DNA from: Sideroxydans sp.
GTDB lineage: Bacteria > Pseudomonadota > Gammaproteobacteria > Burkholderiales > Gallionellaceae
DNA length: 61,948 nucleotides
Assembly: GCA_028710605.1 (NCBI GenBank)
Contig: JAQTTU010000014.1
Span: 1-61,948, forward strand
Direction: 5' to 3'
The position numbers were made by a program, and so were the translations under genes. The number at the start of each line of letters is the position of its first letter. The stretch's first letter is position 1. The notes under the pieces were generated by a model. It was not told the DNA's origin. It did no database searches and saw nothing but the letters and a program-made list of their open reading frames with translations. This document shows, piece by piece, positions 16,112-36,565 of this stretch.

Positions 16112-16235
16112 TCTTTTCTCCTCGTGTAATTTAAAAGCATGCCCAGCGCGACAAACAAATCGAGCCGCTGGCGATGTGCTTTGGGCAGATTTGCAAGTGG
16201 GGCGAACTGTATTGGAGGAGAGCGGGAAGTGTCAA
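16112..16235 (-). promoter_or_regulatory. Shared-type promoter (copy D) of the lipoprotein gene
   Basis: On the minus strand the -35 is TTGACA (16230-16235), the -10 TACAGT (16206-16211), 18 bp apart, followed by TCGCCCCACTTGCAAATC. The same arrangement occurs at 27030, 31432 and 36380. This copy has a leader of about 95 nt and lacks the anti-Shine-Dalgarno block of the other three. Confidence 0.75.
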
Positions 16236-16343
16236 TGTTGCAAGGAGGGTTTTGCTGTAATTTTGAAATGCCAACCTCACGGGATACCCGCAAGGGGTAG
16301 GCCGTGGTTGTAGAGCCGACAAGTCGGCAACAACCACGCACAC

Positions 16344-16410
16344 GCCCGTCAATAGGCGATCTAGCGCATACGATTGATGGAGATGGCCGTATTTAGGGGC
16401 TTGCGAGCAA
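16344..16410. repeat. Family A palindromic repeat, copy 3
   Basis: GCCCGTCAATAGGCGATC, then GCGCATACGATTGATGGAGA, then the right arm ending GGGGCTTGCGAGC. It is nearly identical to the copy at 17855, so the two bracket the Phd/RelE to orphan-antitoxin segment as direct repeats. The rest of the 395-bp gap holds promoter copy D and nothing else I can name. Confidence 0.88.
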
Positions 16411-16506
16411 TCAGGGTTATTCAAAAGTGCCTAACCCGAGCAATCTGCGGTTGACCGACCCCTCTCAACCTCCTACACTCCAGCGTACATTATTCAGGAC
16501 ATAATC

Positions 16507-16764
16507 ATGAACGCCATCCATGCGGGAATTACCATCGGGGTCACCGAATTGCGCGAGTCGCCGACACGCATTCTCCAACGCGCAGAAGACGAAGACCAGG
16601 CCGTCGCCATCCTTAATCACAACAAACCGGCGGGCTACATCATCTCGCCCAGAATGATGGAAGCCATGCTCGACTCCATCGCCGAACGCATTGCCGAGAA
16701 CCGCGCCAAAACTCGCCTCCCCACGTTGAACAAAGCCCGCAAGGTCAAACTGGATGAGCTATGA
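16507..16764 (+). CDS. Phd/YefM family antitoxin
   Basis: This 85-residue protein fits the Phd/YefM/StbD antitoxin fold: VTELRESPTRILQRAEDEDQ and AVAILNHNKPAGYIISPRMME. It would bind its own promoter and the RelE toxin encoded next, whose start lies 11 bp inside this gene. CAGGACATAATC precedes the ATG. Confidence 0.9.
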   Translation: MNAIHAGITIGVTELRESPTRILQRAEDEDQAVAILNHNKPAGYIISPRMMEAMLDSIAERIAENRAKTRLPTLNKARKVKLDEL

Positions 16765-17035
16765 ACTCGCCATCCATCCAGAAGCCGAGAAAGAATGGGC
16801 GAAACTGGATGGCAGCATAAAACGGCGCTTCAAGGAAAAGTTCGCCAAAGAGCGACTCACCCACCCGCGCGTAGCGAAAGATGCGCTACGAGAGATGCCC
16901 GACTGCTACAAAATAAAAATCACCACACCGCAGTTCAGATTGATTTACCACGTCAACGACACCAAACGCCTATTGACCATCCTCTCGGTGGCAAGCAGAG
17001 ACGACGTGTATGCCGAACTGAAATCGCGGCTGTGA
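16754..17035 (+). CDS. RelE family mRNA interferase toxin
   Basis: This 93-residue protein has the RelE pattern: LAIHPEAEKEWAKLDGSIKRRFKEK, then LREMPDCYKIKITTPQFRLIYHV and VASRDDVYAEL. The basic YKIKI and RLIYHV strands and C-terminal Tyr fit ribosome-dependent mRNA cleavage. It is coupled to the upstream antitoxin by an 11-bp overlap. Confidence 0.92.
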   Translation: MSYELAIHPEAEKEWAKLDGSIKRRFKEKFAKERLTHPRVAKDALREMPDCYKIKITTPQFRLIYHVNDTKRLLTILSVASRDDVYAELKSRL

Positions 17036-17093
17036 TTTTTCTTGAAATAGGCGGCGACACTGATCCATCCTTTAAATCGCAGACGGGGCATTT

Positions 17094-17150
17094 GTAGGTG
17101 CGAATTTATTCGCACAAAACTCGTGGCGCGTGCGAATTAATTCGCACCTT
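17094..17150. repeat. Family B repeat
   Basis: GTAGGTGCGAATTTATTCGCAC and GTGCGAATTAATTCGCACCT are separated by AAAACTCGTGGCGC. It lies between the RelE toxin and the orphan HTH gene. Confidence 0.85.
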
Positions 17151-17190
17151 GCACGCAACTCAACTGAGTTTTCTAGGATGAATTTTTGCC

Positions 17191-17514
17191 ATGACCACAA
17201 AAACTAAAACCCAAAGCGGCATTCTGCAAGCCGTCCATGAAACAGCGAGCGACCTTCATCGCTTGGGCTTTATTGATAAACGCAAAATGAACAAATTTGA
17301 TGCCCTGTGTCTGACACCTGTGCCGGAATACAGCAGCGAAAAAATTCGTGAACTGCGCGACCATTTGCAACTCAGCCAAGCGGTGCTCGCAGCCGTGTTG
17401 AACACCAGCATATCGACCGTGCGCAAATGGGAAATCGGCGAAAAACATCCCAGCGGACCGTCGTTGAAACTGCTGAACTTGCTGGAACGCAAGGGGTTAG
17501 AGGCGGTGCTTTAA
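17191..17514 (+). CDS. Orphan HTH (NadS/HigA-like) antitoxin-type regulator
   Basis: This 107-residue protein has a C-terminal XRE-type helix-turn-helix (IRELRDHLQLSQAVLAAVLNTSISTVRKWEIGEKHPSGP) as in NadS/HigA-type antitoxins of RelE/HigB toxins. The expected toxin would lie immediately upstream, but the 155 bp before it hold only a family B repeat. It may be a solitary regulator left after toxin loss, or act on another toxin. Confidence 0.75.
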   Translation: MTTKTKTQSGILQAVHETASDLHRLGFIDKRKMNKFDALCLTPVPEYSSEKIRELRDHLQLSQAVLAAVLNTSISTVRKWEIGEKHPSGPSLKLLNLLERKGLEAVL

Positions 17515-17531
17515 AGTTAACCAATGCAGGC

Positions 17532-17729
17532 TTAGTCTTTGCCATGCAATCCCCATTCAACATCTTCTTGAATAAAGGATTCGGTTAACACGCCTTGATG
17601 CGATTCCAGATAGCGGCGCAATGCTTCATTGACCACCTCTTCAACGTTACTCGCCCAACCTTGTTGCACCAGTGTTTGCGCCTGTTGCCGCAGCTGATCG
17701 GGTATTTCAGCGTGAATAGAGCTACTCAT
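17532..17729 (-). CDS. Small ParD/CopG-like antitoxin, no toxin nearby
   Basis: This 65-residue protein has the pattern of ribbon-helix-helix antitoxins (SSIHAEIPDQLRQQAQTLVQQGWASNVEEVVNEALRRYLE). A strong site, AGGAGG, precedes ATG 17729. The toxin is normally encoded just downstream, but the gene converges on the HTH gene with only 17 bp between stops, so the partner is missing. Confidence 0.65.
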   Translation of the reverse strand: MSSSIHAEIPDQLRQQAQTLVQQGWASNVEEVVNEALRRYLESHQGVLTESFIQEDVEWGLHGKD

Positions 17730-17854
17730 GACTGGCCTCCTGTTTGAATATACGAATCTTCCCTGTAACTATATCGTTAATCAGCGTGTTGTGCTGGCTT
17801 GAAGAGGGGAGGTGCGATGGAAGCAGTTACGGTTGACCTGCACTTCATGGGCAC

Positions 17855-17919
17855 GCCCGTCAATAGGCGATCTAGCGCATACGATTGATGGAGATGGCCG
17901 TATTTAGGGGCTTGCGGGC
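17855..17919. repeat. Family A palindromic repeat, copy 4
   Basis: GCCCGTCAATAGGCGATC to GGGGCTTGCGGGC. It matches copy 3 at 16344 almost base for base. It sits in the 309-bp gap before hicA, which otherwise shows no feature. Confidence 0.88.
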
Positions 17920-18038
17920 AAGTATGAGTTTGAAAAATCAAGTGTAGGGTGCGCCTGCGCACCATCGACAATTTGAACTTGTCCGCCAGCTATTTGGTTG
18001 AATCAAAATATTTGACAGCCGGACATTTATGACCGACC

Positions 18039-18266
18039 ATGCAAATCATGAAAGGCAGCGAATTCCTGAAGAAGCTCAAGACCCTCGCCGAACGAAAGGG
18101 ATGGTCTTACAAGTGGCATCCCGACGAAGGCAAGGGAAGTCATGGTGCGCTTTACCTGAATGGTCAAAAAACCATCGTGCGCAATTTAAAGGACGAACTG
18201 AAAACCGGAACCTATCACGCCATGCTCAAGCAACTGGGCATCAAAGAAAGCGACCTGCACAAATAG
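18039..18266 (+). CDS. hicA: HicA-type mRNA interferase toxin
   Basis: This 75-residue protein has the dsRBD-like HicA fold: MKGSEFLKKLKTLAERKGW and the catalytic-His segment GKGSHGALYL. HicA toxins cleave mRNA and are held by HicB. ATG 18048 (MKGSEF) is the alternative start and agrees better with family N-termini; no strong ribosome site favours either. HicB begins 10 bp downstream. Confidence 0.9.
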   Translation: MQIMKGSEFLKKLKTLAERKGWSYKWHPDEGKGSHGALYLNGQKTIVRNLKDELKTGTYHAMLKQLGIKESDLHK

Positions 18267-18275
18267 AGGCACACC

Positions 18276-18698
18276 ATGAAAACTTACGACTACGCATTCA
18301 AATTTACCAAAGACGACGATGGCTGGGTCATCACCTGCCGCGATTTGCCCGAAGCCATTTCGCAGGCAGACGCAAACGAAGACCGCATCGACGTGGCGCA
18401 AGGTTGCCTGCAAGCCGCGCTCGAATCCCGCATCCGCGACAACGAATCCCTGCCCGTCGCCAGCAAGCTGCGTCGCGGCGAAGTGGAAGTGTCACCCCCA
18501 GCCGCAACCGCCGCAAAAGCCGCGCTTTACGACGCAATGCGCGAAGCGGGCATCAGCAAATCCGAGCTTGCGCACAGGCTGGGCGTGGATGAAAAAGAAG
18601 TGCGCAGAATGCTCGACGCGGGGCACGGCACAAAGCTACCGCGCATTGCCGAAGCAGTCGAAGCGTTGGGGCGGCATCTGCATATTGCGCTGGTTTGA
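18276..18698 (+). CDS. hicB: HicB antitoxin with C-terminal HTH
   Basis: This 140-residue protein has the partial RNase H-like HicB domain (YAFKFTKDDDGWVITCRDLPEAISQADANED) followed by a helix-turn-helix (AMREAGISKSELAHRLGVDEKEVRRMLD). It would neutralise HicA and repress the pair. AGAGGCACACC precedes the ATG. Confidence 0.92.
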   Translation: MKTYDYAFKFTKDDDGWVITCRDLPEAISQADANEDRIDVAQGCLQAALESRIRDNESLPVASKLRRGEVEVSPPAATAAKAALYDAMREAGISKSELAHRLGVDEKEVRRMLDAGHGTKLPRIAEAVEALGRHLHIALV

Positions 18699-18783
18699 GA
18701 ACTGCACAGGCCGCGCGAGAAAATAGCCGTGGTCTGCCCCCGGTTATTCGGTTGTTACCGGTTGTTAGGTTCAATCAATGCTT

Positions 18784-19209
18784 TTAATTTACCGCAAAAG
18801 GATTGATTACAATTAAGCCTGCAATGCGTTGACCGCTTTGCAAATCTTCGGTTAAAAGCTCGGAAGCGCCCGAGCGTTCGGCTGCCGCGATAATCATTCC
18901 ATCCCAGAAAGATGTTTGCCAAGCATCGGCAATTTCAGATGCGCGAATAACCATTTCACCGTCAGACACAGTCCTGACCCACGGCAAATAAATACGCATC
19001 ACTTCACGTGCCACAGCAGTTGGTAACGGTTGCGGGATTTTTTTGGTAACGTTGACAAAAAACTCTTGCAACACCTGAGCACTCAAACAACCGTTTTCCT
19101 GATTCCAAAGATCAATCAGTATTTGCCGCGCCTTGTCGTGCTTGATACCGGCATCACGATCATGCGCGTAGATCAGGATATTTGTATCAACGAAGCGCAG
19201 TGCGGTCAT
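18784..19209 (-). CDS. PIN-domain ribonuclease toxin (VapC-like)
   Basis: This 141-residue protein shows the PIN acidic residues: FVDTNILIYAHD (first Asp at 7), QVLQEFFVNV (Glu) and SFWDGMIIAAAE (Asp). It should be a Mg-dependent RNase. ATG 19209 is chosen because the family N-terminus begins there (MTALRFVDTN); it overlaps the antitoxin gene by 23 bp. The longer frame upstream is the antitoxin in another frame. Confidence 0.9.
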   Translation of the reverse strand: MTALRFVDTNILIYAHDRDAGIKHDKARQILIDLWNQENGCLSAQVLQEFFVNVTKKIPQPLPTAVAREVMRIYLPWVRTVSDGEMVIRASEIADAWQTSFWDGMIIAAAERSGASELLTEDLQSGQRIAGLIVINPFAVN

Positions 19210-19432
19210 GGAGCGCCTCGCGATCATTGACACCCAGACCGCCAAGCGACCAAGGCTGTTCAAGCATGGAAAGAGCAATCTGTTTGGAATGCTCGTAGCG
19301 ACGATGGTTTTCGATTTTTTCAATCAACTCATCGGCCAGCAAGGCACTCACGCTGGTGCCTTGTTGCGCGGCAAAAACGCGCGCGGCCACGAGCACCTCC
19401 CGATCAAGTGCAAGAGTGATGTTCTGTTTCAT
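19187..19432 (-). CDS. Ribbon-helix-helix antitoxin of the PIN toxin
   Basis: This 81-residue protein starts MKQNITLALDREVLVAARVF, with a beta strand then helix typical of RHH repressors, followed by QQGTSVSALLADELIEKIE. Start 19432 is chosen over an upstream ATG because it gives the conserved N-terminus. It is coupled to the downstream PIN gene by overlap. Confidence 0.85.
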   Translation of the reverse strand: MKQNITLALDREVLVAARVFAAQQGTSVSALLADELIEKIENHRRYEHSKQIALSMLEQPWSLGGLGVNDREALHDRTALR

Positions 19433-19716
19433 GGGGTTACTCCCGTAAAATTTAGTCGCACGTATATTACGTGCAACAAGAGCCATTCACCAGCAGCATT
19501 TACGCATTTGAAAAAAACAATCCAATGTAAGCCAGTTGATTCAGAACAAAAAACCCCCCCGCTTCCTTGTGATGGGCGGGGGGTGGAGGTGAGGCAAAAT
19601 ATCTGGTCACTCAGGATTCAGATTTCGTGGGAAAACGCGGAAACCGTGGTCTGTCCCCGTTTCTCGTTTCTTAAGGCGGCGTGAAAATGATTGTGATGCT
19701 GGCTCCTTTGCCTCAG

Positions 19717-19752
19717 CCAACAAAACGCCCCGGATACGGGGCGTTTTGTTGG
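19717..19752. terminator. Perfect 36-bp palindrome, likely bidirectional terminator
   Basis: CCAACAAAACGCCCC and GGGGCGTTTTGTTGG are exact complements around the loop GGATAC. The T-rich tracts on both sides fit a terminator working in either direction, although neither flanking gene ends close to it. Confidence 0.65.
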
Positions 19753-19840
19753 GGGCATTTATCTGTGTTTGATCGAAAACCGTGGCCCCTTTAATTTCGT
19801 GATGTGCCCTTCCTGCATGTCGCCCCCGCTTAAAATCAAA

Positions 19841-19884
19841 AGGGGACATTTCTACTTTGCTGATAGGGGACATTACAACTTTGC
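19841..19884. repeat. Two direct repeats AGGGGACATT..ACTTTGC
   Basis: AGGGGACATTTCTACTTTGC (19841-19860) and AGGGGACATTACAACTTTGC (19865-19884) differ at two or three positions with a 24-bp period. Tandem terminal repeats of this kind are found at ends of some insertion sequences, so this may be a solo IS end. No transposase is present. Confidence 0.6.
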
Positions 19885-19911
19885 GTTTACATATCTGTGG
19901 TCTCTGATTGT

Positions 19912-21809: not shown

Positions 21810-22073
21810 CTATTCCAGCCCAAACAACTCATCCAGCGGATTCTTCCCCGCCCCCGCACTACCCGAAACTTTCTTCACCGTAAATTCCTCTTCAATGTTG
21901 TCCCGATAAAAACTCCACGCTGCGCCGGAAGTGCTGAGTCGTCGCCAGAGGTCTTCGCCGACTCCGCTGTATTGCAGGGTGTCGCCGTTGTTGAGTTGCA
22001 CTTGCAGCAGGCGCGCGCGCGCGTCGTAGCCGATGGCGCGGAGTTTGCCGGAGTTGATTTTTTTCATTTCCAT
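21810..22073 (-). CDS. KTSC domain protein
   Basis: This 87-residue protein matches the KTSC domain: KINSGKLRAIGYDARARLLQVQLNNGDTLQYSGVGEDLWRRL, then SFYRDNIEEEF. KTSC proteins are small, of unclear function, and sometimes linked to nucleic-acid enzymes. ATG 22073 has GAAGGA at good spacing; ATG 22079 would sit directly on that site. GC content is like the core genome, unlike the nuclease gene downstream. Confidence 0.8.
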   Translation of the reverse strand: MEMKKINSGKLRAIGYDARARLLQVQLNNGDTLQYSGVGEDLWRRLSTSGAAWSFYRDNIEEEFTVKKVSGSAGAGKNPLDELFGLE

Positions 22074-22131
22074 AAACATTCCTTCGGTTTCTATTTCTGA
22101 TCATTCATCCCGGACCATCAGCCCAGCAACT

Positions 22132-25163: not shown

Positions 25164-27029
25164 TTATTTATACAACACCTGCTCCTTCAAGTTATCTATC
25201 GCCTTCTCCGCAATCTTTTTGTATTCGACGAATACCTGCGGTTTGCAGACGTTGCCTTTGGTGCGGTCATCGAGTGTGCGTTTGACGGTCAGGACGTTGC
25301 CTTTGAGTTTGTAGTTCGCCGTGTAGGACACGAAGTCGTTGGCGATTTTCAGGTTGTCCGGGATAGACAGCACTTTGACTGTCTTGGGCAATTCGATGGT
25401 GTATTCCTCTGTGGCATTGATACTGGAACAGACGACATCGACTTCTTCCGGTTCCATCGCGGTCTGAAGGAATGAATAAATAGGCGCGGCTAAACTGAGC
25501 GGTGGATAGATGTAGAAGGCACCTGCGCCGGGCAGCTTGATGAATTTTTCGGCATTGAAGCTTGCTTTGTAGTGGTAGTTGTCCGTCAGTTCTTTCGGGT
25601 CGTCTTTTTCCAGTTTGCCGTTGCCGATTATGTTTTGTTGCCGGTATATGTTTTTGACCAGATCATCTTCGGTTTCCTTGGTCATGTTGCGCGCCCAGGC
25701 TCGTGTTTGTACTGCGTTTACCCCTTGCAGAGATACATCCACATTGCCGGAAACTGAACCGTCGGGCGCGAACTTGAACTTACTTTTGACGTATTGCTTG
25801 TTGCTGCCGATGGGCGGCACCGGAGTTTTTGCGCCATCCTTGAAGCCTTCGACCAGCAGCACGGGTTTGTCCTGGTCGCCGTAGGGCAGCAAGCCGAACG
25901 GTGTGGAGTCCGATGTGGAATCGAGATACAGGTCGAACGCGGGGACATAATTGATTACGTGGTTGACGGTGGAAACGACAGGGACTTTTGCCAATTGATA
26001 GGCCGACCCCGCATTCACCAAGGCCTGCGTGCTCTTGATGCCGCGAGCCGCGAGCAGGGCTTGCAGCAGTGTGGCGTGATCTTTGCAGTCGCCCATCTTG
26101 TTGTCGAGGATGAACGCGGTATCTCGCGGTACGACAGCGCCGATGCCGATGCAATTGCCGGCATAGGTGATATTGGTGGCGACCCATTCGTAAAGGGCGC
26201 GAGCCTGTTCTTTGGGGGCAGATTTGTCCTTGACGATGTCGCTGGCCAGTTTGCTGATCCGTTCCGTGACGGCTGCCTTGGGCAGCGCTCGTTCGCCATA
26301 AGCGGATGCGATGTCGGCGTAAGTTTTGAAAGTGGAAAAAGACAGGCCGGTGACCTTGTCGGCATCGAACACCGAATAATCGCGGCGTTCGGTTTTGAGC
26401 GGTTGCGGGTTGGCATAAGACCACTCGATGATTTTGCGCTCGCCTTGTGTTTCGTTTGCCGTTTCTTTCATGCCTCGTGCTTCGTACTGCACCCACATCG
26501 CGGCGGGATAGTCGAATCTCACACGTACATCGTTGTAGGCGACCTGATCGGAGAAATACTGCGCAGTCGAATATTGCTTGGGGAACATCGGCTCGGTTTG
26601 CACCAGCTTGAAGGAGAACACGACTTTGTCGCCGACAGCGACATCGGGAAAGACGACGGTCAATGTTGACCAGTCGGAATAGACCGGAGAATCCTTGTCC
26701 TTGCCGCTGTTGACTTCAAGCTGGTAGTTGTCTTTGGGCACGTCCAAGCGGCGACCATCCGCTTTTAAGGTATAGGCCGCGACCACTTCGGTCTTCTCTG
26801 CGCTGGTGCTGTAACTGACGGAAGCGCTCTTGGACCTTTCCAGCGCGGTTTCTTTCAACACTGTTTTCGACCATTCGTGTGACTCTGTCGCCGTGCCGTC
26901 TTCATTGATGGAGTAGGTGGCGTGGTAGTAGTCGAAGCGGATTTGCAGCTCAAGCGGATCGCCTGTTGCGGCGCAAGCAGAGGTGCAAAACATGAGTGCT
27001 GCAAGTAAAGAAGCGAATGCGATTTTCAA
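25164..27029 (-). CDS. Exported DUF3857/transglutaminase-like protein (TTG start)
   Basis: This 621-residue protein has an N-terminal signal (IAFASLLAALMFCTSACA), a DUF3857 half and a transglutaminase-like core with Cys315 (KMGDCKDHATLLQALL), a His in VNHVINYV and an Asp in DLYLDSTSD. Such proteins are thought to act on envelope peptides or cross-links; the substrate is unknown. The TTG at 27029 is chosen because AAAGGGGATTCAC precedes it and the signal begins there. The longer ATG-initiated frame would translate the conserved leader. Control is probably through the promoter and leader at 27030-27218. Confidence 0.85.
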   Translation of the reverse strand: MKIAFASLLAALMFCTSACAATGDPLELQIRFDYYHATYSINEDGTATESHEWSKTVLKETALERSKSASVSYSTSAEKTEVVAAYTLKADGRRLDVPKDNYQLEVNSGKDKDSPVYSDWSTLTVVFPDVAVGDKVVFSFKLVQTEPMFPKQYSTAQYFSDQVAYNDVRVRFDYPAAMWVQYEARGMKETANETQGERKIIEWSYANPQPLKTERRDYSVFDADKVTGLSFSTFKTYADIASAYGERALPKAAVTERISKLASDIVKDKSAPKEQARALYEWVATNITYAGNCIGIGAVVPRDTAFILDNKMGDCKDHATLLQALLAARGIKSTQALVNAGSAYQLAKVPVVSTVNHVINYVPAFDLYLDSTSDSTPFGLLPYGDQDKPVLLVEGFKDGAKTPVPPIGSNKQYVKSKFKFAPDGSVSGNVDVSLQGVNAVQTRAWARNMTKETEDDLVKNIYRQQNIIGNGKLEKDDPKELTDNYHYKASFNAEKFIKLPGAGAFYIYPPLSLAAPIYSFLQTAMEPEEVDVVCSSINATEEYTIELPKTVKVLSIPDNLKIANDFVSYTANYKLKGNVLTVKRTLDDRTKGNVCKPQVFVEYKKIAEKAIDNLKEQVLYK

Positions 27030-27218
27030 GTGAATCCCCTTTGTCGAACAAGTTGTGCGGCGTGCGTTGTTTCCCGTCGTCGCGGAATACGAATCTTGCG
27101 CCAGACTCCTATTTCCGGGGATTCCGCTGTATGCCTCGCGCCGTGCGTGCGGTGCGATGTGCGTGTGGCGGATTTGCAAGTGGGTTGAACTGTAGGGGAG
27201 CGGGGTTGGTGGTGTCAA
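27030..27218 (-). promoter_or_regulatory. Shared promoter-leader, copy A
   Basis: The -35 TTGACA (27213-27218) and -10 TACAGT (27189-27194) are 18 bp apart, then CCCACTTGCAAATC. The leader of about 155 nt includes AGGAGTCTGGCGCAAG. GAATCCCC of the RNA (plus-strand 27117-27124) can pair fully with GGGGATTC (27032-27039), which contains the Shine-Dalgarno of the TTG start. Copies B and C share the layout. Confidence 0.75.
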
Positions 27219-27306
27219 TTGCTGAATGGTTTGTTTCGGGCTGATAGACTTGGCGCTTCGCTGGAAGGCGGATAATTTCTATTGAAAACCATTAGTTAAT
27301 GGGTTG

Positions 27307-27366
27307 GTAGGTGCGAATTTATTCGCACATCACTCTTTATTCGTGCGAATAAATTCGCACCTACAA
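27307..27366. repeat. Family B repeat
   Basis: GTAGGTGCGAATTTATTCGCAC and GTGCGAATAAATTCGCACCTAC are separated by ATCACTCTTTATTC. It lies upstream of tpm. Confidence 0.88.
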
Positions 27367-27424
27367 GTGGGGGTCTATTGGGTTATCCGAGGCTAAGGAA
27401 TTTTCAAACAATGAAGGTGCGAAT

Positions 27425-28081
27425 ATGAAAAAAGAATTTTGGCTGGAGCGTTGGGAGCGGGCGGAGATCGGGTTTCATCAGGGCGAGATCAATCCTTATC
27501 TGCGGCGTTTCTGGCCGGAGTTGGATGTGGCGCGCGGCGGCGAGGTGTTTGTGCCGTTGTGCGGCAAGAGTCTGGATATGGTGTGGCTGCGCCAGCAGGG
27601 AAATTTTGTGCTGGGGGTGGAGTTGAGTCCGATTGCGGTGCGAGATTTTTTTCGCGAGCAGGGGAGGTTGGCGCAGCGTGTGAGCGGCGGGGGGTTCGAC
27701 AATTACATCGCGGATGGATTTTGTCTGGCTTGCGGCGATTTTTTCGATTTGCGCGAGGAGGATATGGCGCAGGTGAGCGCGGTTTACGACCGCGCTTCGC
27801 TGGTGGCGTTGCCGCCGGAGATGCGCGAAAGTTATGCGCGACATCTGGTAAACATCCTGCCGTCGGGGACGCGGATTTTGCTGGTCACGTTCGATTATCC
27901 GCAGGCGGAAATGCCGGGGCCGCCGTTCGCGGTGTCGGTGCAGGAGGTGCAAGCCCTTTACGGGCAGTACGCAGAGGTGCGTTTGCTGGCGCAGGAAGAT
28001 GTGCTGGCGCAGAACCCGCGCTTCGTGCAACGCGGGGTGACGCGGATGCAGGAGAATATTTTTCTGGTGACGTTGCGGTAG
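27425..28081 (+). CDS. tpm: Thiopurine S-methyltransferase
   Basis: This 218-residue class I SAM methyltransferase matches bacterial TPMT: FWLERWERAEIGFHQGEINPYL, then VFVPLCGKSLDMVWLRQQGNFVLGVELSPIAV (SAM loop), DFFDLREED and YDRASLVALPPEMRESYARHL. Bacterial TPMTs methylate thiol- and selenium/tellurium-type compounds. It stands alone between two family B repeats. GAAGGTGCGAAT precedes the ATG. Confidence 0.93.
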   Translation: MKKEFWLERWERAEIGFHQGEINPYLRRFWPELDVARGGEVFVPLCGKSLDMVWLRQQGNFVLGVELSPIAVRDFFREQGRLAQRVSGGGFDNYIADGFCLACGDFFDLREEDMAQVSAVYDRASLVALPPEMRESYARHLVNILPSGTRILLVTFDYPQAEMPGPPFAVSVQEVQALYGQYAEVRLLAQEDVLAQNPRFVQRGVTRMQENIFLVTLR

Positions 28082-28095
28082 CGAGGTATTGTATG

Positions 28096-28156
28096 TGTAG
28101 GTGCGAATTCATTCGCACGGGGTAAATGGTGAGTGCGAATAAATTCGCACCTACAA
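28096..28156. repeat. Family B repeat
   Basis: GTAGGTGCGAATTCATTCGCAC and GTGCGAATAAATTCGCACCTAC are separated by GGGGTAAATGGTGA. With the copy at 27307 it brackets tpm. Confidence 0.88.
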
Positions 28157-28195
28157 ACACCTCAAATGCGGCTTTACGGAAAAAGCCGATAGTGT

Positions 28196-28771
28196 TCATA
28201 TCACCGTCAACCCCAGCGAGCACCAGTCCTGCATGCCGCCTCGATACCATTTCAATTTTTCGGCGGGGTAGCCGAGGGATAGCAGGGTGCGGATGTAGTT
28301 GGGCGTTTGTCCGCACCACGGGCCGTTGCAGAAGATGGCGAGGGTGCGCGCTTCGCTGAAGTCGTAATCCCCGCCGATTTCTTTCGCGCCGAATATTTCC
28401 GCCAGTGTTTTTTTCACGCCGGGCAGGTCGGTGGCTTCGCCTGCCATGTTCTGCGCGTAGGGAATGTTGATTGCGCCGGGGATGGTGTATTTCTCGTACC
28501 AGTCTGCTGTGCGCGAATCGACGACCATGAGTTGGCTGTCGCCGTGGCGGATGCGCCGGAGAAAATCCAGCACTTCCAGTTCGCCCAGCGTTTCCACGCC
28601 CGCCGCCAGTTGCATGGGCTGGATGCAATACGGCGGACATTTGCGCGCGGTGGCGGCGTAATCGGCGCGTATCGTGGCGGACGGGTTTTGCTCGCGCTGT
28701 ATCGTGACGAGTTTGCCTCGATGCAGCGCTTCTACGGCAGGGATGGTTGCGGTGATGTTGTAGTCGGTCAT
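28196..28771 (-). CDS. Rhodanese-domain protein
   Basis: This 191-residue protein has a rhodanese domain in its second half: LMVVDSRTADWYEKYTIPGAINIPY and the active-site loop IFCNGPWCGQTP (Cys as sulfur acceptor), then YRGGMQDW. The first 70 residues are of unknown role. Start 28771 overlaps the stop of the hydrolase gene by ATGA, so the two are translated together. It could transfer sulfur or act as a regulatory domain for its partner. Confidence 0.85.
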   Translation of the reverse strand: MTDYNITATIPAVEALHRGKLVTIQREQNPSATIRADYAATARKCPPYCIQPMQLAAGVETLGELEVLDFLRRIRHGDSQLMVVDSRTADWYEKYTIPGAINIPYAQNMAGEATDLPGVKKTLAEIFGAKEIGGDYDFSEARTLAIFCNGPWCGQTPNYIRTLLSLGYPAEKLKWYRGGMQDWCSLGLTVI

Positions 28772-30372
28772 GGTAGCAGCGAGTTTAGCACTTGCTTGGT
28801 TTGCGCCTGATCGAAGAAGTTGAGATGCATCACCACGGACTGCGGATTTTTTTCGTCTCCGTAGCTGTAGGCGGGTTTCATTATCGACTGGTAAGCGGGC
28901 AGGTAGCCGGGGTTGGGGCTGGCTCCGTCGTAGGGTACGACCAAGTCGTTGGCCGCGCCGTCGAACACGCCGTTGTCCCACAAATATTCTTGCAGCAGTT
29001 TGGCGGGCAGGGCGTGGAAGTCGTAATGCGCGCGGATATAGTCGTATTCGGCGGCTGCGGTTTTTCCGAATTTGTTCAGCTCGGTGATTTCGGTGCCGAC
29101 CGGGTTCATTGATTCCACGCCCGGCATTTGTTGGGCGATGGTCGCCAGCAATTTGATGATGGTCAAAATCGCTTTGACGAAAGCCGAGGACGATCCGCCG
29201 AAGAACCAGACGAGCATGTTGAGGCGGCGGAACAGGCGGTCGGTGTTTTGCGCTTCGGCCAGTTGCGATCCCAGGCAGGCGCCCGCCACGAACACCACTT
29301 TGTTGATGGTGACTCCCTGCTTGGCCAGCGTCTGGATATTGGCCGGGTTCTCGACGAAGTTGCGGATCACGCCGCCGCCGCGACTGTGGCAGACAATATC
29401 CAGCGTGACGTTATGCAGCGCGCCCAATTTTTCCATCAGCAGATTGTTGGCGTTGAGCGCGGTGGTTTTGGACAGGGTGTAGTGATCCCACGCCAGCACA
29501 TTGTTGTTGTAGCGGGCAAGCAGCGGGGGGAAGAACGCGGGGTCGCCGAGCAGCCCTTCAAACGCGCCCACGGTGGAGCTGAAAATGCCGTGGCAGAACA
29601 GCAGCGCCTTGCCGTTGATCGCTTGCAGTTCGGCGCTGGTGGCCGCACGCGGCACGCCGCTTTGCGGAATGATTTGCAGCACTTCCTGGCCGTCGGTGTT
29701 TTTCTTCAGATAAACGTCGGCCTTTCTGGCGAGCCACTCCACCAGCCCCGTCAGTTCCAGACGATATGCCGGATGAAAGACGGGCGCGCGGCTTGTGCCG
29801 ACGAGGTTGTGTTGCATGCGCATGCGCTGCGTGCGTTGCATCACTTCTTCGTCTTCGATGACGAAGATGCCGAAGGTCAATTGCGTTTCGTTTTCCCATT
29901 GCCCGGCCTGGCTCAGAAAATCGGCGCGGCCGGTAAACGGACTGGCTTCGCGCTTGACGGATACCAGCGGGATGTCGAAATAGATGGCGGTGTCGTTGGT
30001 TTCCTGCTGGCGGAAAAAGGAAGACGGCTGGTGACCCGGCAGCACCCAATCCACCAGTGCGCCGCGCTCGTTATCCAGAATCAGCACCACATAGCTTCTT
30101 TCGTCCGCCGCTTCCGGTAGCGTCAATTCCAGATGCAATTGCGGCGCTGCATTCGACAGCAACCCCGGCCTGGTGCGCACCGTGTCAACGTTGTGCAGCG
30201 TGTTGTTCAGCAGCTTGAAATTTTCGCCGATAAGGTCATCCCAGATTTCTCCCATCATTTCCGCCCGGGTGGTTTCGCCGATAAAGTCGGAAGTGCCGGA
30301 GGCATATTTCACCTGGTATCCGCCACGTGATTCGATGCTGGCAATGTCGTTTTCAAGGTTGCTGAATCTCAT
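28768..30372 (-). CDS. Alpha/beta hydrolase (lipase-like), 534 residues
   Basis: The C-terminal half is an alpha/beta hydrolase: the oxyanion segment ALLFCHGIFSSTVGAF (about 262) and the nucleophile elbow DIVCHSRGGGVIRNF (Ser near 330) with CHSRGG in place of the commonest GHSMGG. Asp and His of the triad cannot be placed with certainty. The first 200 residues resemble no domain I know and may be a binding module. No signal peptide is seen. It precedes and is coupled to the rhodanese gene. Confidence 0.7.
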   Translation of the reverse strand: MRFSNLENDIASIESRGGYQVKYASGTSDFIGETTRAEMMGEIWDDLIGENFKLLNNTLHNVDTVRTRPGLLSNAAPQLHLELTLPEAADERSYVVLILDNERGALVDWVLPGHQPSSFFRQQETNDTAIYFDIPLVSVKREASPFTGRADFLSQAGQWENETQLTFGIFVIEDEEVMQRTQRMRMQHNLVGTSRAPVFHPAYRLELTGLVEWLARKADVYLKKNTDGQEVLQIIPQSGVPRAATSAELQAINGKALLFCHGIFSSTVGAFEGLLGDPAFFPPLLARYNNNVLAWDHYTLSKTTALNANNLLMEKLGALHNVTLDIVCHSRGGGVIRNFVENPANIQTLAKQGVTINKVVFVAGACLGSQLAEAQNTDRLFRRLNMLVWFFGGSSSAFVKAILTIIKLLATIAQQMPGVESMNPVGTEITELNKFGKTAAAEYDYIRAHYDFHALPAKLLQEYLWDNGVFDGAANDLVVPYDGASPNPGYLPAYQSIMKPAYSYGDEKNPQSVVMHLNFFDQAQTKQVLNSLLP

Positions 30373-30523: not shown

Positions 30524-31258
30524 TTACACAAAGCAGCCGCCGTCCGAATGCGCCGCATCGGCGCTCAAAGCGAGCAGCGGCGCGCAGTCGTACTCCGCGT
30601 TGTCCAGCAGGCTTTCCACGCACAAACTGCATTCGCCCATCAGTGCGGCTTTATGTTTTTTTGATACGTCGTCGCAGGCTTTGTGCTTGGCGGAATCCTG
30701 CGCTTCGTAGCAATAAAATTTGACCAGTTCGTTATCGTCGTTGCGCTCGCAATGGCTGGCGGTATAGGAATCCTGTATCAGGTGCAGCATCATGCCGATG
30801 CTGCGGTAACGGATTTTGGAAATTTCTCTGGTGTCGTTGATGTCCTCAAATGCGATGCTGCCATCGGCAAACAGCGCCCGCATTTTTTTATGGTTCAACT
30901 CGATTTTGCTCGCCCTGCCGATCGGCACTTTGCCGGTAGCCAGTTCATTCAAATAGCCGAACCACGCCGCCAGTTCATCGCGCGTGCTGCTGGCGGGTTC
31001 GCCGCATCCTTTGGACATGGCGTGCAGGGAAGCCAAGCGTCCGTGGTGCGACTGAAAAAGCGCGGGATCATCGTTGTGGATGAAAATTTCCATGGCGCGG
31101 ATCGCGTTGGGTTGTTTGATGAATATCTGGCTGCCGCCGGACAGCTCGCACAAATCGTTGGCGGTGACCCCGAGGCTGATTTGCTCGCGCGCCCTGCCGC
31201 TGATCTTCAGCGCGTCGAGACAGATCAGCGAATATTGGACGTGGTTGTTTAGCAGCAT
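30524..31258 (-). CDS. Possible zinc-dependent phospholipase C-like protein
   Basis: This 244-residue protein has His- and Asp-rich segments (IFIHNDDPALFQSHHGRL, SIGMMLHLIQDSYTASHCER) that recall the metal-binding helices of the zinc phospholipase C/S1-P1 nuclease fold (HxxxD...SH). The C-terminus is Cys-rich. The assignment is tentative. GGGAGAACGCC precedes ATG 31258. The promoter-leader at 31432 lies upstream on the same strand. Between them a 60-codon frame (31249-31431) starts at the leader's ribosome site; it reads through a repeat fragment and is probably not a real protein. Confidence 0.55.
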   Translation of the reverse strand: MLLNNHVQYSLICLDALKISGRAREQISLGVTANDLCELSGGSQIFIKQPNAIRAMEIFIHNDDPALFQSHHGRLASLHAMSKGCGEPASSTRDELAAWFGYLNELATGKVPIGRASKIELNHKKMRALFADGSIAFEDINDTREISKIRYRSIGMMLHLIQDSYTASHCERNDDNELVKFYCYEAQDSAKHKACDDVSKKHKAALMGECSLCVESLLDNAEYDCAPLLALSADAAHSDGGCFV

Positions 31259-31431: not shown

Positions 31432-31619
31432 TGGAATTCCCCTTTGAGCAGGTTGTGTTGCCGGCGCGGTTTCCCTTGTGCTGCGGGAAAATTTCTTGCG
31501 CCAGCTCCTGTTTCTGGGGACTCTTTCGTAGCGCTACGCACCGTACATAGCGGGGCGTATGTCTGTCGAAAGATTTGCAAGTGGGACGAACTTTAGGGGA
31601 GTTATTCGGGTGGTGTCAA
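31432..31619 (-). promoter_or_regulatory. Shared promoter-leader, copy B
   Basis: The -35 is TTGACA (31614-31619), the -10 TAAAGT (31590-31595), spacing 18 bp, then TCGTCCCACTTGCAAATC. The leader contains AGGAGCTGGCGCAAG and ends AAAGGGGAATTCC before an ATG at 31431. AGTCCCC of the RNA can pair with GGGGA at the ribosome site, less fully than in copies A and C. It is divergent from the OB-fold gene at 31689. Confidence 0.72.
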
Positions 31620-31688
31620 TAATTTTTCAGCCGCTCCCTGTTACACTTTGCACTTCAAAAATATTTATTAAACGGGAGCATCCAAACC

Positions 31689-32476: not shown

Positions 32477-32543
32477 GTAGGTCGGGATTTATCCCGACGG
32501 TGTTCACGGTTTGAAAAAATCGTCGGGATAAATCCCGACCTAC
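32477..32543. repeat. Family D repeat, long-loop version
   Basis: GTAGGTCGGGATTTATCCCGAC and GTCGGGATAAATCCCGACCTAC are perfect partners around GGTGTTCACGGTTTGAAAAAATC. It sits between convergent genes, followed by a small GAGACTTTTCAGTCTC hairpin at 32551. Confidence 0.88.
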
Positions 32544-32576
32544 AAAAGCGTGAGACTTTTCAGTCTCAGAGAATCA

Positions 32577-33374
32577 TTACCAGAATCCCCCCGATTTCGG
32601 TTTCTTGGCCTCGCCCGATTTATACATTTCCTCCAGTTTCGCTTTGGCACCTTCGTGGTTTTGATCGGCGGCTTTTTTGTACCACTCCGCCGCCTGGGCG
32701 ACATCCTGCTTCACGCCCACGCCTTTGCGGTACATGCCCGCCACATTGAATTGCGCGCTTGCGTCGCCCTTCATCGCGGCTTTCATGAACCACTCGAAGG
32801 CGACCGGATAATCTTCCGCGAAGGCGGCACCGTCGCTGTACATGACACCCAGCGCGATATACGCGGCGGTATATTCTTTCTCAGCTGCTTTGGTGTACCA
32901 CGCCAAAGCCTGCGCATCATCCTGCGGCAAGACCACGCCTTTGGAGTAACCGAGCCCCAAGTTATACATGGCCCAAGCATCGCCTTCCTCCGCCAAGAGG
33001 CGGTAAATGTCGGTTTTTTGACGGCAGGAAGTTTTCATGAACAAATTCAGAACATCGGAAAATCCCGCATCGACCTTGCCCGCAACGTATTTGAAGTCCG
33101 CGCGCCATTCTCCCGTTTTGTATTTGTCCAGCAGAACTAGCGCCGAATACTGGTCTTTGCACATCAGCTCAAACTCGCCGCGCTGTTCCGATTTCGCTGC
33201 CTGTTGCACCAAGCCATCCACCGTTTCCAGCGCATTTTTGGCGCATACCGACTCTTCGTAGTTGGCTTTAAACGTATCCACCGCCGCAGCGGGATCGCAG
33301 GAAGAAGCCTGCGCGCTCAAAGCGAGCAGCGACAGAGTGAAGGCGAGAGCCGGGTGGAAAATATTGCGTGACAT
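32577..33374 (-). CDS. Exported Sel1-repeat protein
   Basis: This 265-residue protein has a signal peptide (FTLSLLALSAQA) and three to four Sel1-like repeats from about residue 125: AMYNLGLGYSKGVVLPQDDAQALAWYTKAAE, AYIALGVMYSDGAAFAEDYPVAFEWFMKAA and AQFNVAGMYRKGVGVKQDVAQAAEWYKKAA. Sel1 repeats are protein-protein scaffolds. Partners are unknown. No operon neighbours on this strand are close. Confidence 0.9.
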   Translation of the reverse strand: MSRNIFHPALAFTLSLLALSAQASSCDPAAAVDTFKANYEESVCAKNALETVDGLVQQAAKSEQRGEFELMCKDQYSALVLLDKYKTGEWRADFKYVAGKVDAGFSDVLNLFMKTSCRQKTDIYRLLAEEGDAWAMYNLGLGYSKGVVLPQDDAQALAWYTKAAEKEYTAAYIALGVMYSDGAAFAEDYPVAFEWFMKAAMKGDASAQFNVAGMYRKGVGVKQDVAQAAEWYKKAADQNHEGAKAKLEEMYKSGEAKKPKSGGFW

Positions 33375-33454
33375 TGCGTGGCCTCTTGGAACGTGATTGC
33401 AGAGGTTTCATTATGGGCAGGTCACGGCGATTCGACAAGCGCAAAACAGGCAAT

Positions 33455-33530
33455 ATCATGGAGATGCCCGTCAATCGGCGATCTGCGAGGTATGGGTCGG
33501 AGATCGCCGTGTTTACTGCCTTTGGGGGCA
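33455..33530. repeat. Family A palindromic repeat
   Basis: CATGGAGATGCCCGTCAATCGGCGATCTGC and GGAGATCGCCGTGTTTACTGCC, with an extra left half. It abuts the stop of the gene at 33536. Confidence 0.82.
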
Positions 33531-33535
33531 ATTCA

Positions 33536-34384
33536 TTATTTTTTTAGCCACGATATTGCTTTTGAGACATTAAAGCTGATGCCGTACATCGTGCTTGGTG
33601 TTGTGCCCAGCGATGCCAGCCCTGTGTTTTCGTTATCCCGTGTCCATACGCGGGCAATAAACACATCGGCAAAATCGAAGCTGTAACCGATCCCCAGCCC
33701 CATTGATTCGTTGGGCGTGTTGGATGCTTTGAACAGAAACTTTGCGCTCAGGTTGTGCCAGTCGCGGCAGTCGTAGTTGGTATAAACATCGCCCAGCTTG
33801 TAATTCAAACCGAGATAAAACGATACCGGTTTGTCTTTTTCGACAAGGCTGGAAGTTTGCGGGTTGTAGCTGAGCTGTTTCGCGTTGGTCACAGGCATGT
33901 CGGCGGACAGCGACCAGTGTTCCTCCGGGCCGGCAATGAATGAGCGGTTGATCGGCGGCTTACTATCAATCTGGATGGCGATGGTCGAGCGTTCAAATGC
34001 GGTGGTGTATTCAATGCAAATATGTTTTGGTTTTTCGGCGAAGGTTTCCAACATCTTCACTTGAGATTTGAGGTAAGCGGCGATTTGTGCCACGTCGTCT
34101 TCGATGTGTGATTTGCGTCGGGTTTCTTCGATGGAAATAGTTAACTTGTCGGCATCGGTTTGTGTGTAGTCTCCGATATAGAAAATGTATTTTTTGCCAG
34201 CGCCCGATAAGGGCAGACGGTCGCCGTTGAGTATCGGGTGCTCGGCGTTTGTTGCCAAAACGATCAAACTTTCGCTGTCACACTCAAAGCGTTTAATACT
34301 GCTACTTTCGGTCTTGATACTTTCTGCAAATACGCCGGATGAGAAGAGTGCGAAAACCGCGAATGCCAGCCAATGATTTTTCAT
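33536..34384 (-). CDS. Exported protein of unknown function
   Basis: This 282-residue protein begins with a signal peptide (WLAFAVFALFSSGVFAES). The C-terminal third alternates hydrophobic residues (FYLGLNYKLGDVYTNYD, MGLGIGYSFDFADVFIARVW, STMYGISFNVS) in the way of outer-membrane beta strands, so a small barrel or porin-like end is possible. No family is recognised. Start 34384 is chosen for the signal and for AAAGGCGGAATC upstream. Confidence 0.65.
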   Translation of the reverse strand: MKNHWLAFAVFALFSSGVFAESIKTESSSIKRFECDSESLIVLATNAEHPILNGDRLPLSGAGKKYIFYIGDYTQTDADKLTISIEETRRKSHIEDDVAQIAAYLKSQVKMLETFAEKPKHICIEYTTAFERSTIAIQIDSKPPINRSFIAGPEEHWSLSADMPVTNAKQLSYNPQTSSLVEKDKPVSFYLGLNYKLGDVYTNYDCRDWHNLSAKFLFKASNTPNESMGLGIGYSFDFADVFIARVWTRDNENTGLASLGTTPSTMYGISFNVSKAISWLKK

Positions 34385-34441
34385 TTTGATTCCGCCTTTG
34401 GAGGATTGCGATAGTTCCAAAATTCATTAGTCCCCAATGCC

Positions 34442-34577
34442 TCGTAGGAGCCAGCTTGCTGGCGAATGCCATTCGCGGCACTGCCCTCTATCCAACTTTC
34501 CCCCAGAGGGGGAAAGGGCGATTGCCTCCTCTCCCTCCGGGAGAGGATTGAGGTGAGGGGGGCTGCCGCTCCTACAA
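34442..34577. repeat. Nested repeats: family F interrupted by family E
   Basis: The outer arms CGTAGGAGCCAGCTTGCTGGCGAATGCC and GCTGCCGCTCCTACAAG belong to family F (compare 41145). Between them lies a family E unit with CTTTCCCCCAGAGGGGGAAAG and CCTCTCCCTCCGGGAGAGG. One repeat has apparently entered another. Confidence 0.75.
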
Positions 34578-34632
34578 GGGATGACGCAGATAATGAACTG
34601 TGCAAGTTCATTTGCCGTAATGCGCGCTCATG

Positions 34633-35193
34633 TCAGGCGGGTGTATCTCCCGTTTGCTCTTTCGGTTTTGCCTTGGCTTTGGCCGCTTCATCTTTGAGTT
34701 TGGCTACTTGCGCTGATCTTTCTGCTTCGGGCGGGCGGATGCCGAGTTTTCTGAATATTTGCAGCACACCGGCGCTGCCGCCCGCGATCAGCAGTGCGGT
34801 GAGGAATTTGCCGCCAGCCGCGAGCGAGTGGGTGGTGCTGCCGTCGATGTGTTGCGCGTTCAGCACATCGCGGATGATGTCCATGTCGTAGTTCTGGAAG
34901 ACGATGAATGCGGTGATTACGGTGATGGGCGTTTTCAGTCCTTTGCCATCGAACCGTTTCATGAAAATGCTCCAGTTGAACACCGGATGCAGCGCCACTT
35001 CAAAAATGATGGAGATGGCGAGATAGGTGAACAGGATGTCGTACAGCGTCTGGTTGGTCTGGCCGGTGTCGCCGCTTGCAGCCATCGTTGTGGCGGCCAC
35101 AACGCCGCTGGCGGGCGCGGCTTGCGCTTGAGTGAGCAGAGTAAGGGTGAAGAATGGAACGACCAGTATTGCCATCAGTAATAACTTTTTCAT
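34633..35193 (-). CDS. Small membrane protein of unknown function
   Basis: This 186-residue protein has a signal or first helix (LLLMAILVVPFFTLTLLTQAQA) and three hydrophobic stretches (LYDILFTYLAISIIFEVAL, TPITVITAFIVF, FLTALLIAGGSAGVLQIF), then a Lys/Ala-rich tail (LKDEAAKAKAKPKEQ). No family is recognised. AGAGAGGTCAAC precedes the ATG. Confidence 0.6.
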   Translation of the reverse strand: MKKLLLMAILVVPFFTLTLLTQAQAAPASGVVAATTMAASGDTGQTNQTLYDILFTYLAISIIFEVALHPVFNWSIFMKRFDGKGLKTPITVITAFIVFQNYDMDIIRDVLNAQHIDGSTTHSLAAGGKFLTALLIAGGSAGVLQIFRKLGIRPPEAERSAQVAKLKDEAAKAKAKPKEQTGDTPA

Positions 35194-35263
35194 GTTGACC
35201 TCTCTTGGTTGAATGAATCAATTTTCGGATGATTGCTTTTTGTGCTTTTGTACTGCGTTGAGT

Positions 35264-35288
35264 GTTGTCGGGCTGAAGCCCGACCTAC
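35264..35288. repeat. Half copy of family D repeat
   Basis: GTCGGGCTGAAGCCCGACCTAC, next to the stop of the SGNH hydrolase gene. Confidence 0.75.
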
Positions 35289-35292
35289 GTTT

Positions 35293-36141
35293 TTACAACC
35301 ACCCCTCCCAATACTTCGCCATTTTTGTTTTGCCGCTGTCGTTGAGATGGATCTCGTTCAGCCAGTCGCCGCTGTCGCCCGTTGATCCTTCTGCGGCGCG
35401 CACGAAGGGGATGTTGGCGAGGGAGTCGATCAGGGTGAGGTTGGGGTGTATGGTTTTTTGTTTGCGCAATGTGTTGGCGAGTTCGTCCATCAGGCAGTCC
35501 GACAATTCTTTCCAGTATTGCGTGGGGATTTTGTTGGAGGTGAAGGAGTTGTATAGCCACGGCCCGAAGACTTTGTTCGCCGGGGCATTACGCACGGTCA
35601 CATAGGCGTAGGTGTGATAGAGGATGGGGATGGTGCGGTTGGCTTCCAGTTCGGAATTGTTGCGCAGTTCGACGAGGTAGCGGAAATGGTCGTTGAAATA
35701 GGTTTCAAAAATATCCATCGAGCCGGGGATGATGAAATCGCGGAAGCTGGTGGGGTTGGCGCAGGGCTGTAGCATGCCGCCGCCCGCTGCGGCGACGATG
35801 TCGTTGCCGCCCGCGCTCAACAAAACGGCATCCCATTTCCAGGCGAAATTTTTCTTGTAGAGCAGGTCGTGAAATTTTTTGCTGGTGCTCCAGTCGATCA
35901 TTTTGGACAGCGTCCGTCCGGGGTAGGCGCAGTTGACGATCAGCGTGTCCTGTTTGAGCGGAACGTCCTTGCCGAAGGTGTAGAGAAAAGCCGGGGTCAA
36001 CAAATCGCTGATGGAAAACCACGAGTCGCCGATGGCGAGGTAGTGGCGCTCAAAATCGTTCCACGACAGCAGCACGCCCGGCTTGGTGATTTGTCCGTTT
36101 CCTTCCAGTTCGTCCGGCGAAATTACAGCAACGGTGGTCAT
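35293..36141 (-). CDS. SGNH/GDSL hydrolase
   Basis: This 282-residue protein has the SGNH blocks: YLAIGDSWFS with Ser40 (block I), LLSAGGNDIVAAAGGG with Asn (block III) and DWLNEIHLNDSG with Asp and His (block V). It would hydrolyse an ester or acyl group; the substrate is unknown. No signal peptide is visible. GGGAGAATTCA precedes the ATG. Promoter-leader copy C lies 240 bp upstream, with a family B repeat between. Confidence 0.85.
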   Translation of the reverse strand: MTTVAVISPDELEGNGQITKPGVLLSWNDFERHYLAIGDSWFSISDLLTPAFLYTFGKDVPLKQDTLIVNCAYPGRTLSKMIDWSTSKKFHDLLYKKNFAWKWDAVLLSAGGNDIVAAAGGGMLQPCANPTSFRDFIIPGSMDIFETYFNDHFRYLVELRNNSELEANRTIPILYHTYAYVTVRNAPANKVFGPWLYNSFTSNKIPTQYWKELSDCLMDELANTLRKQKTIHPNLTLIDSLANIPFVRAAEGSTGDSGDWLNEIHLNDSGKTKMAKYWEGWL

Positions 36142-36206
36142 TGAATTCTCCCTTCGGTTAATGAGTTGTTGTGTGCGAATGCGCCTCGAATTCAGGTTGG
36201 AGTTTG

Positions 36207-36298
36207 TGTAGGGGCGAATTCACCTCGCAGAGGTTCTTGCACCCTGTGGGTGTTCGCACGAATTAACATGATATGTGCGAATAAATTCGCACCTACAA
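36207..36298. repeat. Family B repeat with extra internal hairpin
   Basis: GTAGGGGCGAATTCACC and GTGCGAATAAATTCGCACCTAC flank GAGGTTCTTGCACCCTGTGGGTGTTCGCAC. The longer middle may be a second insertion. Confidence 0.75.
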
Positions 36299-36379
36299 AA
36301 CGCAATACACAGAGAGGTGTCGCACTCGTTTTGAGTGCTGGAGGGGCTGAAAAAAATCGGGCGACGAAGCTTGCGTTCA

Positions 36380-36565
36380 TTTGAATCCCCTTTTGAACAA
36401 GTCGTGCTGCTGGCGCTGCGTCCCTTTGGATGCGGGATTGGTCTTGCGCCAGACTCCTTTTCCGGGGATTCCGCCGTGAGCCTCGCGCCGTGCGTGCGGC
36501 GCGATGTGCGTGTGGCGGACTTGCAAGTGGGGCGAACTTTAGGGGAGTAGCTCAAGCTGTGTCAA
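36380..36565 (-). promoter_or_regulatory. Shared promoter-leader, copy C
   Basis: The -35 TTGACA (36560-36565) and -10 TAAAGT (36536-36541) are 18 bp apart, then TCGCCCCACTTGCAAGTC. The leader contains AGGAGTCTGGCGCAAG. GAATCCCC of the RNA (plus-strand 36464-36471) is perfectly complementary to GGGGATTC (36383-36390) at the ribosome site. Confidence 0.74.

Follow-up and report, generated by a model that had tools for sequence, protein, structure and literature searches.

Which described systems come closest to the element that recurs in a 61,948-nt stretch of Sideroxydans sp. DNA (GCA_028710605.1, contig JAQTTU010000014.1, positions 1 to 61,948; hereafter the window), a module of about 230-250 bp that would comprise a promoter, a structured 5' leader of about 150 nt, a AAAGGGGA ribosome-binding site and a start codon? 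Mobile promoters are reportedly highly similar promoter regions that stand before non-homologous genes. Known classes of leaders that mask the ribosome-binding site, such as translational riboswitches and autoregulatory leaders, usually control related genes, and the integron platform consists of a Pc promoter plus attI. A further comparison is provided by horizontal regulatory transfer, or intergenic-region switching, in which recombination swaps the control region before a gene (Oren et al., 2014, as cited in PMC5890482), and by mobile promoters and promoter propagation (Matus-Garcia, Nijveen and van Passel, 2012, references 11-13 in PMC9208149).

The module described here shares features with each of these systems. 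Like mobile promoters, it brings highly similar promoter regions before unrelated genes, but what is conserved in it is chiefly a folded RNA that includes a ribosome-binding site, with compensatory changes and a family-wide spread. With the masking leaders it has in common a structured 5' leader, a ribosome-binding site that is predicted to be paired and a gene directly downstream; unlike them, it precedes genes of about 62 protein clusters, has different cargo behind it at one and the same locus and matches no Rfam family. While intergenic-region switching places different control regions before one gene, here one control region stands before different genes. Finally, the module resembles the integron platform in its fixed promoter with exchangeable genes behind it, but no adjacent integrase and no common recombination site were found, and each unit carries its own promoter and leader. 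We consider it probable that the module is a portable promoter with a translational leader RNA which has spread by recombination and is reused for acquired genes.

Within the window, the pattern TTGACA-N16..20-TAMAGT has exactly four matches (expected 0.05; four in 0/100 shuffles), all on the minus strand and all with the 18-bp spacing reported in a preliminary description of this DNA, and zero-mismatch matches to CCACTTGCAARTC occur only at these four promoter sites in the whole window. Named by their positions, the 36-kb and 31-kb copies carry TTGACA-N18-TAAAGT (36536..36565 and 31590..31619), the 27-kb and 16-kb copies TTGACA-N18-TACAGT (27189..27218 and 16206..16235). In an alignment, similarity over about 150 nt is common to the 27-, 31- and 36-kb copies, and the 16-kb copy shares the promoter and about 90 nt only. 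A covariance model built from an alignment of 33 copies matches full leader RNAs, again on the minus strand, at 36384..36533 (E 1.1e-31), 31436..31587 (E 1.1e-20) and 27033..27186 (E 1.9e-31), and a truncated leader at 16114..16203 (E 0.18); the latter still has the CCCACTTGCAAATC start and what looks by eye like a P1/P2 hairpin, and is without P3-P6 and without the GGGG site. As a guess, the transcript of the 36-kb copy would start at the A at 36528 (minus strand).

Our searches yielded 110 matches from 86 sources, 108 of them unique. The promoter pattern TTGAC[A/G/T]-17/18 bp-TAnnnT is present in 103 of the 108 unique copies, which suggests a promoter of the sigma-70 type (TTGACA, 17-18 bp, TAnAGT); upstream of CATTGACA, conservation drops to at most 0.33 bits per position. 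Between the -10 box and the likely start lies a C/G-rich stretch, as is typical of growth-rate- or stringent-controlled promoters.

The RNA that would follow appears to be a conserved structured leader, as compensatory changes indicate. Its predicted layout places P1/P2 first, followed by P3 around P4, P5 and P6. Pairs were counted on a MAFFT alignment of 100 copies that was not fitted to the fold and in which some rows are still shifted at the GGGG columns, after eight of the 108 copies had been dropped by length (<125 or >165 nt) for both this and the covariation analysis. In the proposed fold 88.2% of the cells pair, and double changes occur in 27 of 43 pairs, amounting to 161 double-change cells versus 58.4 +/- 6.0 in shuffles (0/500) and 48-81 in slid controls. 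An unsupervised ranking by covariation has three pairs of this fold at its top (P1 17-62, P2 30-51 and P2 37-44); the list also holds P2 34-47, P6 99-112 and P4 74-134, together with many pairs outside the fold. Moreover, the likely transcript begins with CUUGC, which can base-pair with a conserved GCAAG next to P5, probably as a pseudoknot. In its five-pair version this helix is perfect in 79 of 100 copies, contains a G-U pair in eight and is maintained by a double change in one; with the fifth pair, which is in conflict with P5, left out of the count, 97.8% of the cells of the remaining four pairs are paired, with one double change. As the helix is near-invariant, this support is modest.

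The leader ends in the AAAGGGGA ribosome-binding site, the GGGG of which is predicted to pair with a CCCC in P3; in the 36-kb copy these strands lie at 36387..36390 (3' strand) and 36464..36467 (5' strand), both on the minus strand. According to thermodynamic prediction, the probability of this GGGG being unpaired is 0.056, versus 0.280 in shuffled leaders, and it is lower than in the latter in 78 of 87 copies. Downstream, the possibility raised earlier that copies might lie mostly away from gene starts is not borne out, as the next long open reading frame (ORF), by a crude calling of ORFs, is on the same strand in 90 of the 104 testable copies at a median distance of 46 nt, with 14 otherwise and four of the 108 too short for the test. 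The module's own start codon opens an ORF of at least 118 aa in 35 of the 108 copies, a short one of 8-97 codons in 67, and none in six. Where it opens a short ORF, similarity often extends for some 60-70 nt more, with a further small hairpin by eye, and the N-termini of these short ORFs resemble one another, as those of a conserved leader peptide might.

What does the module stand in front of? Taking as cargo the longest ORF within 700 nt, which 105 of the 108 copies possess, we obtained 105 proteins in 62 clusters. Since selection of ORFs by length probably brought in some in the wrong frame, and at least one gene is counted in two clusters (L045 4249 and L051 5609), 62 is something of an overestimate. 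A Pfam search covered 51 of the 62 cluster representatives, namely 50 proteins (49 representatives and KwaA) and two further representatives scanned separately, and assigned a family at E <= 0.001 to 29 of the 50. The families are diverse, including ORF6N, methyltransferase, MASE3-PAS-GGDEF-EAL, PAS, phospholipase A1, DUF3857, Nmad2, HerA-like DUF87, OLD-like AAA, class-3 lipase, PhoD, SIR2 with a STAND NTPase, patatin, DUF2130, DUF6765, chemotaxis receptor, KwaB, NA37 and DUF900. Several cargo genes resemble defence genes: a GajA-like gene (PADLOC E 6.4e-216) lies behind the copy at contig 24:110524 of the window genome, and in genome G039 KwaA of a Kiwa system (PADLOC) starts at the module's start codon, followed by KwaB. 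Nine of ten cargo proteins had a PADLOC match at E <= 1e-5; these ten had been chosen for their defence-like look, and we therefore claim no enrichment for defence.

This mixture of functions bears on a second explanation, that the module is a riboswitch or protein-bound leader of a true regulon which responds to one metabolite, ion, temperature or protein signal, its copying being incidental. The conserved complex fold, the near-invariant unpaired stretches and the predicted pairing of the ribosome-binding site would all suit such a leader, but its cargo has no common pathway, and truncated and promoter-only copies persist, so that we regard this explanation as possible yet somewhat doubtful. 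The mixed cargo likewise leaves without support the proposal, made in the preliminary description, that a single signal governs a regulon of envelope functions. Its further statement that the similarity resides in the control region agrees with our results, given that 105 copies precede about 62 protein clusters and that near-alike copies have unrelated flanks; the same two observations uphold one part of its suggestion of a mobile promoter cassette, the copying before different genes. The preliminary description overlooked two things, namely a conserved folded leader RNA with a predicted paired ribosome-binding site and the fact that cargo can differ at one and the same locus where the module stays.

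The covariance-model search that had been proposed at the outset found 11 copies in the window genome at E <= 1.1e-8, and one further place at E 0.585 that is probably due to chance; a search of this 3.36-Mb genome, in which the window is contig 35, for the 24-bp core with at most three mismatches yielded 10 places, and the reversed control none. Beyond this genome, matches are present in 75 of 158 Gallionellaceae genomes, in 8 of 15 genera, and in samples of the order and class in 9 of 399 genomes, all of them Gallionellaceae, and in 1 of 369, the window's own, with no match outside Gallionellaceae in either sample; searches over 40 genomes (family, order, class) used stricter filters, at the loss of weak matches. 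The exact pattern was found in 18 stretches assigned to Sideroxydans, Gallionella, Sideroxyarcus or uncultured Gallionellaceae, or labelled only Nitrosomonadales, Gammaproteobacteria or Proteobacteria. Rfam 15, riboswitches and JUMPstart included, contains no match over the module (at E up to 5 for the window and up to 1 for six loci), and searches of open-access literature, which leaves out most subscription papers, turned up no description of the element. We also considered a phage, plasmid or viral origin, for which neither blastn of phage and plasmid records nor the exact pattern in viral contigs gave a match, the Gallionellaceae content of these collections being unchecked.

The case for portability rests on comparisons between copies. 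In five genomes (G011, G005, G003, G025 and G030) the module blocks are 83-96% identical and the cargo is different; the blocks span from about -46/-33 to at most +222, that of G025 being broken by an inserted repeat. In G011 and G005, about 2 kb upstream is also common (89%), with an unalignable gap of 94 or 340 bp before the module; at this locus the two genomes have the module in common but not the cargo, up to the end of the G005 contig (4.6 kb). A second such locus is the 27-kb locus of the window, where the module occurs together with the upstream gene 27404-28030 in the window, in G025 and in G017. G025 also has in common with the window the rhodanese gene 28196-28981 and a 1363-aa gene beyond a variable stretch, whereas a search of 2.1 kb upstream of the module in G017 found no rhodanese gene, such that the same-locus match of this genome rests on one upstream gene; the counterpart of the 16-kb lipoprotein gene lies on the same G017 contig. 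Behind the module at this locus there is a DUF3857 gene in the window, a 408-aa ORF in G025 and a 343-aa ORF in G017. DUF3857 genes in G007, G014 and G030 are also led by a module, and over most of its length the window's 27-kb module is closer to its same-locus neighbours than to these. In L149/L215 (G025:C36), a repeat-like insertion of about 70 bp lies in the P6 region, with the rest of the leader in place.

Elsewhere, similarity is confined to the module, as seen in three pairs with 91.5-93.4% identity over 211-236 bp (L139/L141, 91.5%; L155/L056, 93.1%); L153/L148 (93.4%) have in addition one further 187-bp piece in common downstream. The two copies of the pair in G015 are 93.4% identical over 211 bp, unlike elsewhere in the compared flanks, and by eye they are nearly identical in their RNA parts and different in their promoter spacers, a pattern expected after gene conversion.

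Decayed copies can be traced as well. The G017 ortholog of the 16-kb lipoprotein gene is 95% identical, and its control region keeps the promoter and the AAGGGGAA site and has a repeat in place of the lost P1/P2. Copies consisting of the promoter only, without P1-P6, are found in four genomes (L046 6701, L048 2717, L051 2800 and L052 6444), all before one similar ORF which, translated by eye, starts MYNL(F/Y)KPEQPAGLMDF. Conversely, only the 3' half without a promoter is left at L212 11716-11788, L213 5767-5827 and L213 9369-9437. The retention of the promoter in truncated copies and the good conservation of promoter hexamers and spacing among the copies at large are what one would expect if the promoter alone mattered and the RNA were baggage or served copying. 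Such a pure mobile promoter is an improbable account of the element, as the compensatory changes over 100 copies and the predicted pairing of the ribosome-binding site point to selection on the RNA, and in the G015 pair it is the RNA that is almost identical and the promoter spacers that differ.

Returning to the portable promoter and leader, how could such a module operate and spread? Comparison of sequences shows a promoter, a fold in which compensatory changes occur, a position next to genes, separate copies in unrelated surroundings and, at two loci, differing cargo. From these features we infer transcription from the promoter, repression and relief of translation, a route of spreading by recombination and a benefit to the host. 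As P3 would mask the ribosome-binding site by pairing its GGGG with the CCCC, translation should be low until a factor, a ligand, another RNA or the ribosome opens P3 and relieves it. The likeliest route by which the module reaches further sites, alone or together with cargo, is homologous recombination between copies, along with gene conversion; a resident module could in this way receive a new gene, and a new gene could arrive with its own module, with selection keeping both promoter and RNA. Homologous recombination between copies would explain why the blocks have variable ends, why the RNA part can be converted and why cargo differs at one locus.

Several observations weigh against this explanation. 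Neither fixed ends of the modules nor a recombinase were found, and the upstream regions have no common motif, with no 10-mer occurring in more than 9 of 107. Copies with different cargo are equally alike within a genome and between genomes (mean 0.718 vs 0.716); frequent spreading within genomes is therefore not seen overall, and homogenisation within genomes has to be rejected as a general rule, though single pairs show it. In the leader, double changes are few in P3, at least six copies are without the 3' side of P4/P5, and the five-pair pseudoknot has a mismatch or gap in 12 of 100 copies. Nine of 87 copies break from the paired ribosome-binding site, itself a thermodynamic prediction only, and 13 of 100 were excluded from that test as they had no GGGG near the end. 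The same-strand count for downstream ORFs has to be compared with that for the nearest long ORF on the upstream side, 61 of 92. Finally, some promoter-only or truncated copies still face genes, such that the promoter may be the useful part.

A bolder version of the portable module would make it a family-specific, integrase-free platform for gene capture, in which the leader, with its promoter, ribosome-binding site and start codon, is itself the homology anchor for incoming defence and effector genes that are expressed at once under a common translational brake; we offer this as a tentative idea that is rather unlikely to hold. The related notion of an attI-like recombination site, at which a site-specific recombinase inserts cassettes behind a fixed promoter and the fold is needed as single-stranded DNA, could draw on the differing cargo at two loci, on clusters of modules in the same orientation and on integron integrases above the curated cut-off in 15 of 34 genus genomes (e.g. 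G028:C1:388278-389222). However, the window genome has no integron integrase above the cut-off, among the matches listed, no contig has one of the 15 integrases at less than 150 kb from a module, and upstream of the modules there is no common element and junctions vary, leaving the integron reading as a weak rival that is very unlikely to be correct. Just as unlikely is a gene for an independent trans-acting small RNA that lies upstream of accessory genes by chance, which would account for the own promoter, the strong fold and the 67 short and six missing ORFs at the module's start codon, but not for a ribosome-binding site and start codon inside the conserved block, for the 35 of 108 copies in which an ORF of at least 118 aa follows without a break, or for a 3' end at which no terminator is seen by eye, no terminator scan having been run.

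The genes behind the window copies, all on the minus strand, were named in the preliminary description with varying success. The DUF3857/transglutaminase gene behind the 27-kb copy (25164..27029), which continues in frame from the TTG start codon of the module, is confirmed by a match to PF12969 (E 2e-26); this gene is present in 4 of 34 genus genomes, with the module in front of each. For the gene behind the 36-kb copy (35293..36141), which starts about 242 nt past the leader match, the name SGNH hydrolase has a weak basis, with an SGNH/GDSL match just under the Pfam cut-off (23.2 vs 23.6 bits). The lipoprotein-like gene behind the truncated 16-kb copy (15377..16111), present in 2 of 34 genus genomes, owes its name to a signal and lipobox recognised by eye and to an NCBIfam match that is far sub-threshold (16.4 vs 80 bits). 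The gene behind the 31-kb copy (30524..31258; start about 177 nt past the leader match) had been called phospholipase-C-like, a name and fold for which there is no match in Pfam, NCBIfam or PDB sequences and which we do not retain. In the 36-kb and 31-kb copies, the module's own start codon opens ORFs of 62 and 60 codons, respectively, and not the named gene.

The genes upstream of the 27-kb module (27404..28981, minus strand) comprise that at 27404-28030 and the rhodanese gene already mentioned. Further repeats occur in the window. A repeat family of about 70 bp (GCCCGTCAATAGGCGATC...) has seven copies (130-201, 10573-10644, 16318-16389, 17829-17900, 36576-36647, 44167-44238 and 59962-60033), one of which stops some 10 bp short of the 36-kb module on its upstream side. 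Paired palindromes that are like repetitive extragenic palindromes (REP-like), of the type GTAGGTGCGAATTYATTCGCAC, lie at 13566-13624, 17091-17149, 27304-27362 and 28094-28152, one pair adjoining the 27-kb module just upstream. In addition, a stretch of about 250 bp at 21822-22075 has counterparts with about 89-92% identity in G007, G025 and G017 (two copies) and is perhaps another small mobile element, and two 79-nt arms with 97% complementarity lie 36 kb apart (732-810 and 36786-36864).

How transferred foreign genes gain workable expression is an open question. As the module can be traced across 75 genomes with differing cargo, this question becomes testable in one bacterial family. The leader RNA, which has no Rfam match, is a candidate for a new class of regulatory RNA in environmentally important iron oxidisers, and the module may serve as a handle for accessory and defence genes, making the unknown proteins behind it candidates for such functions.

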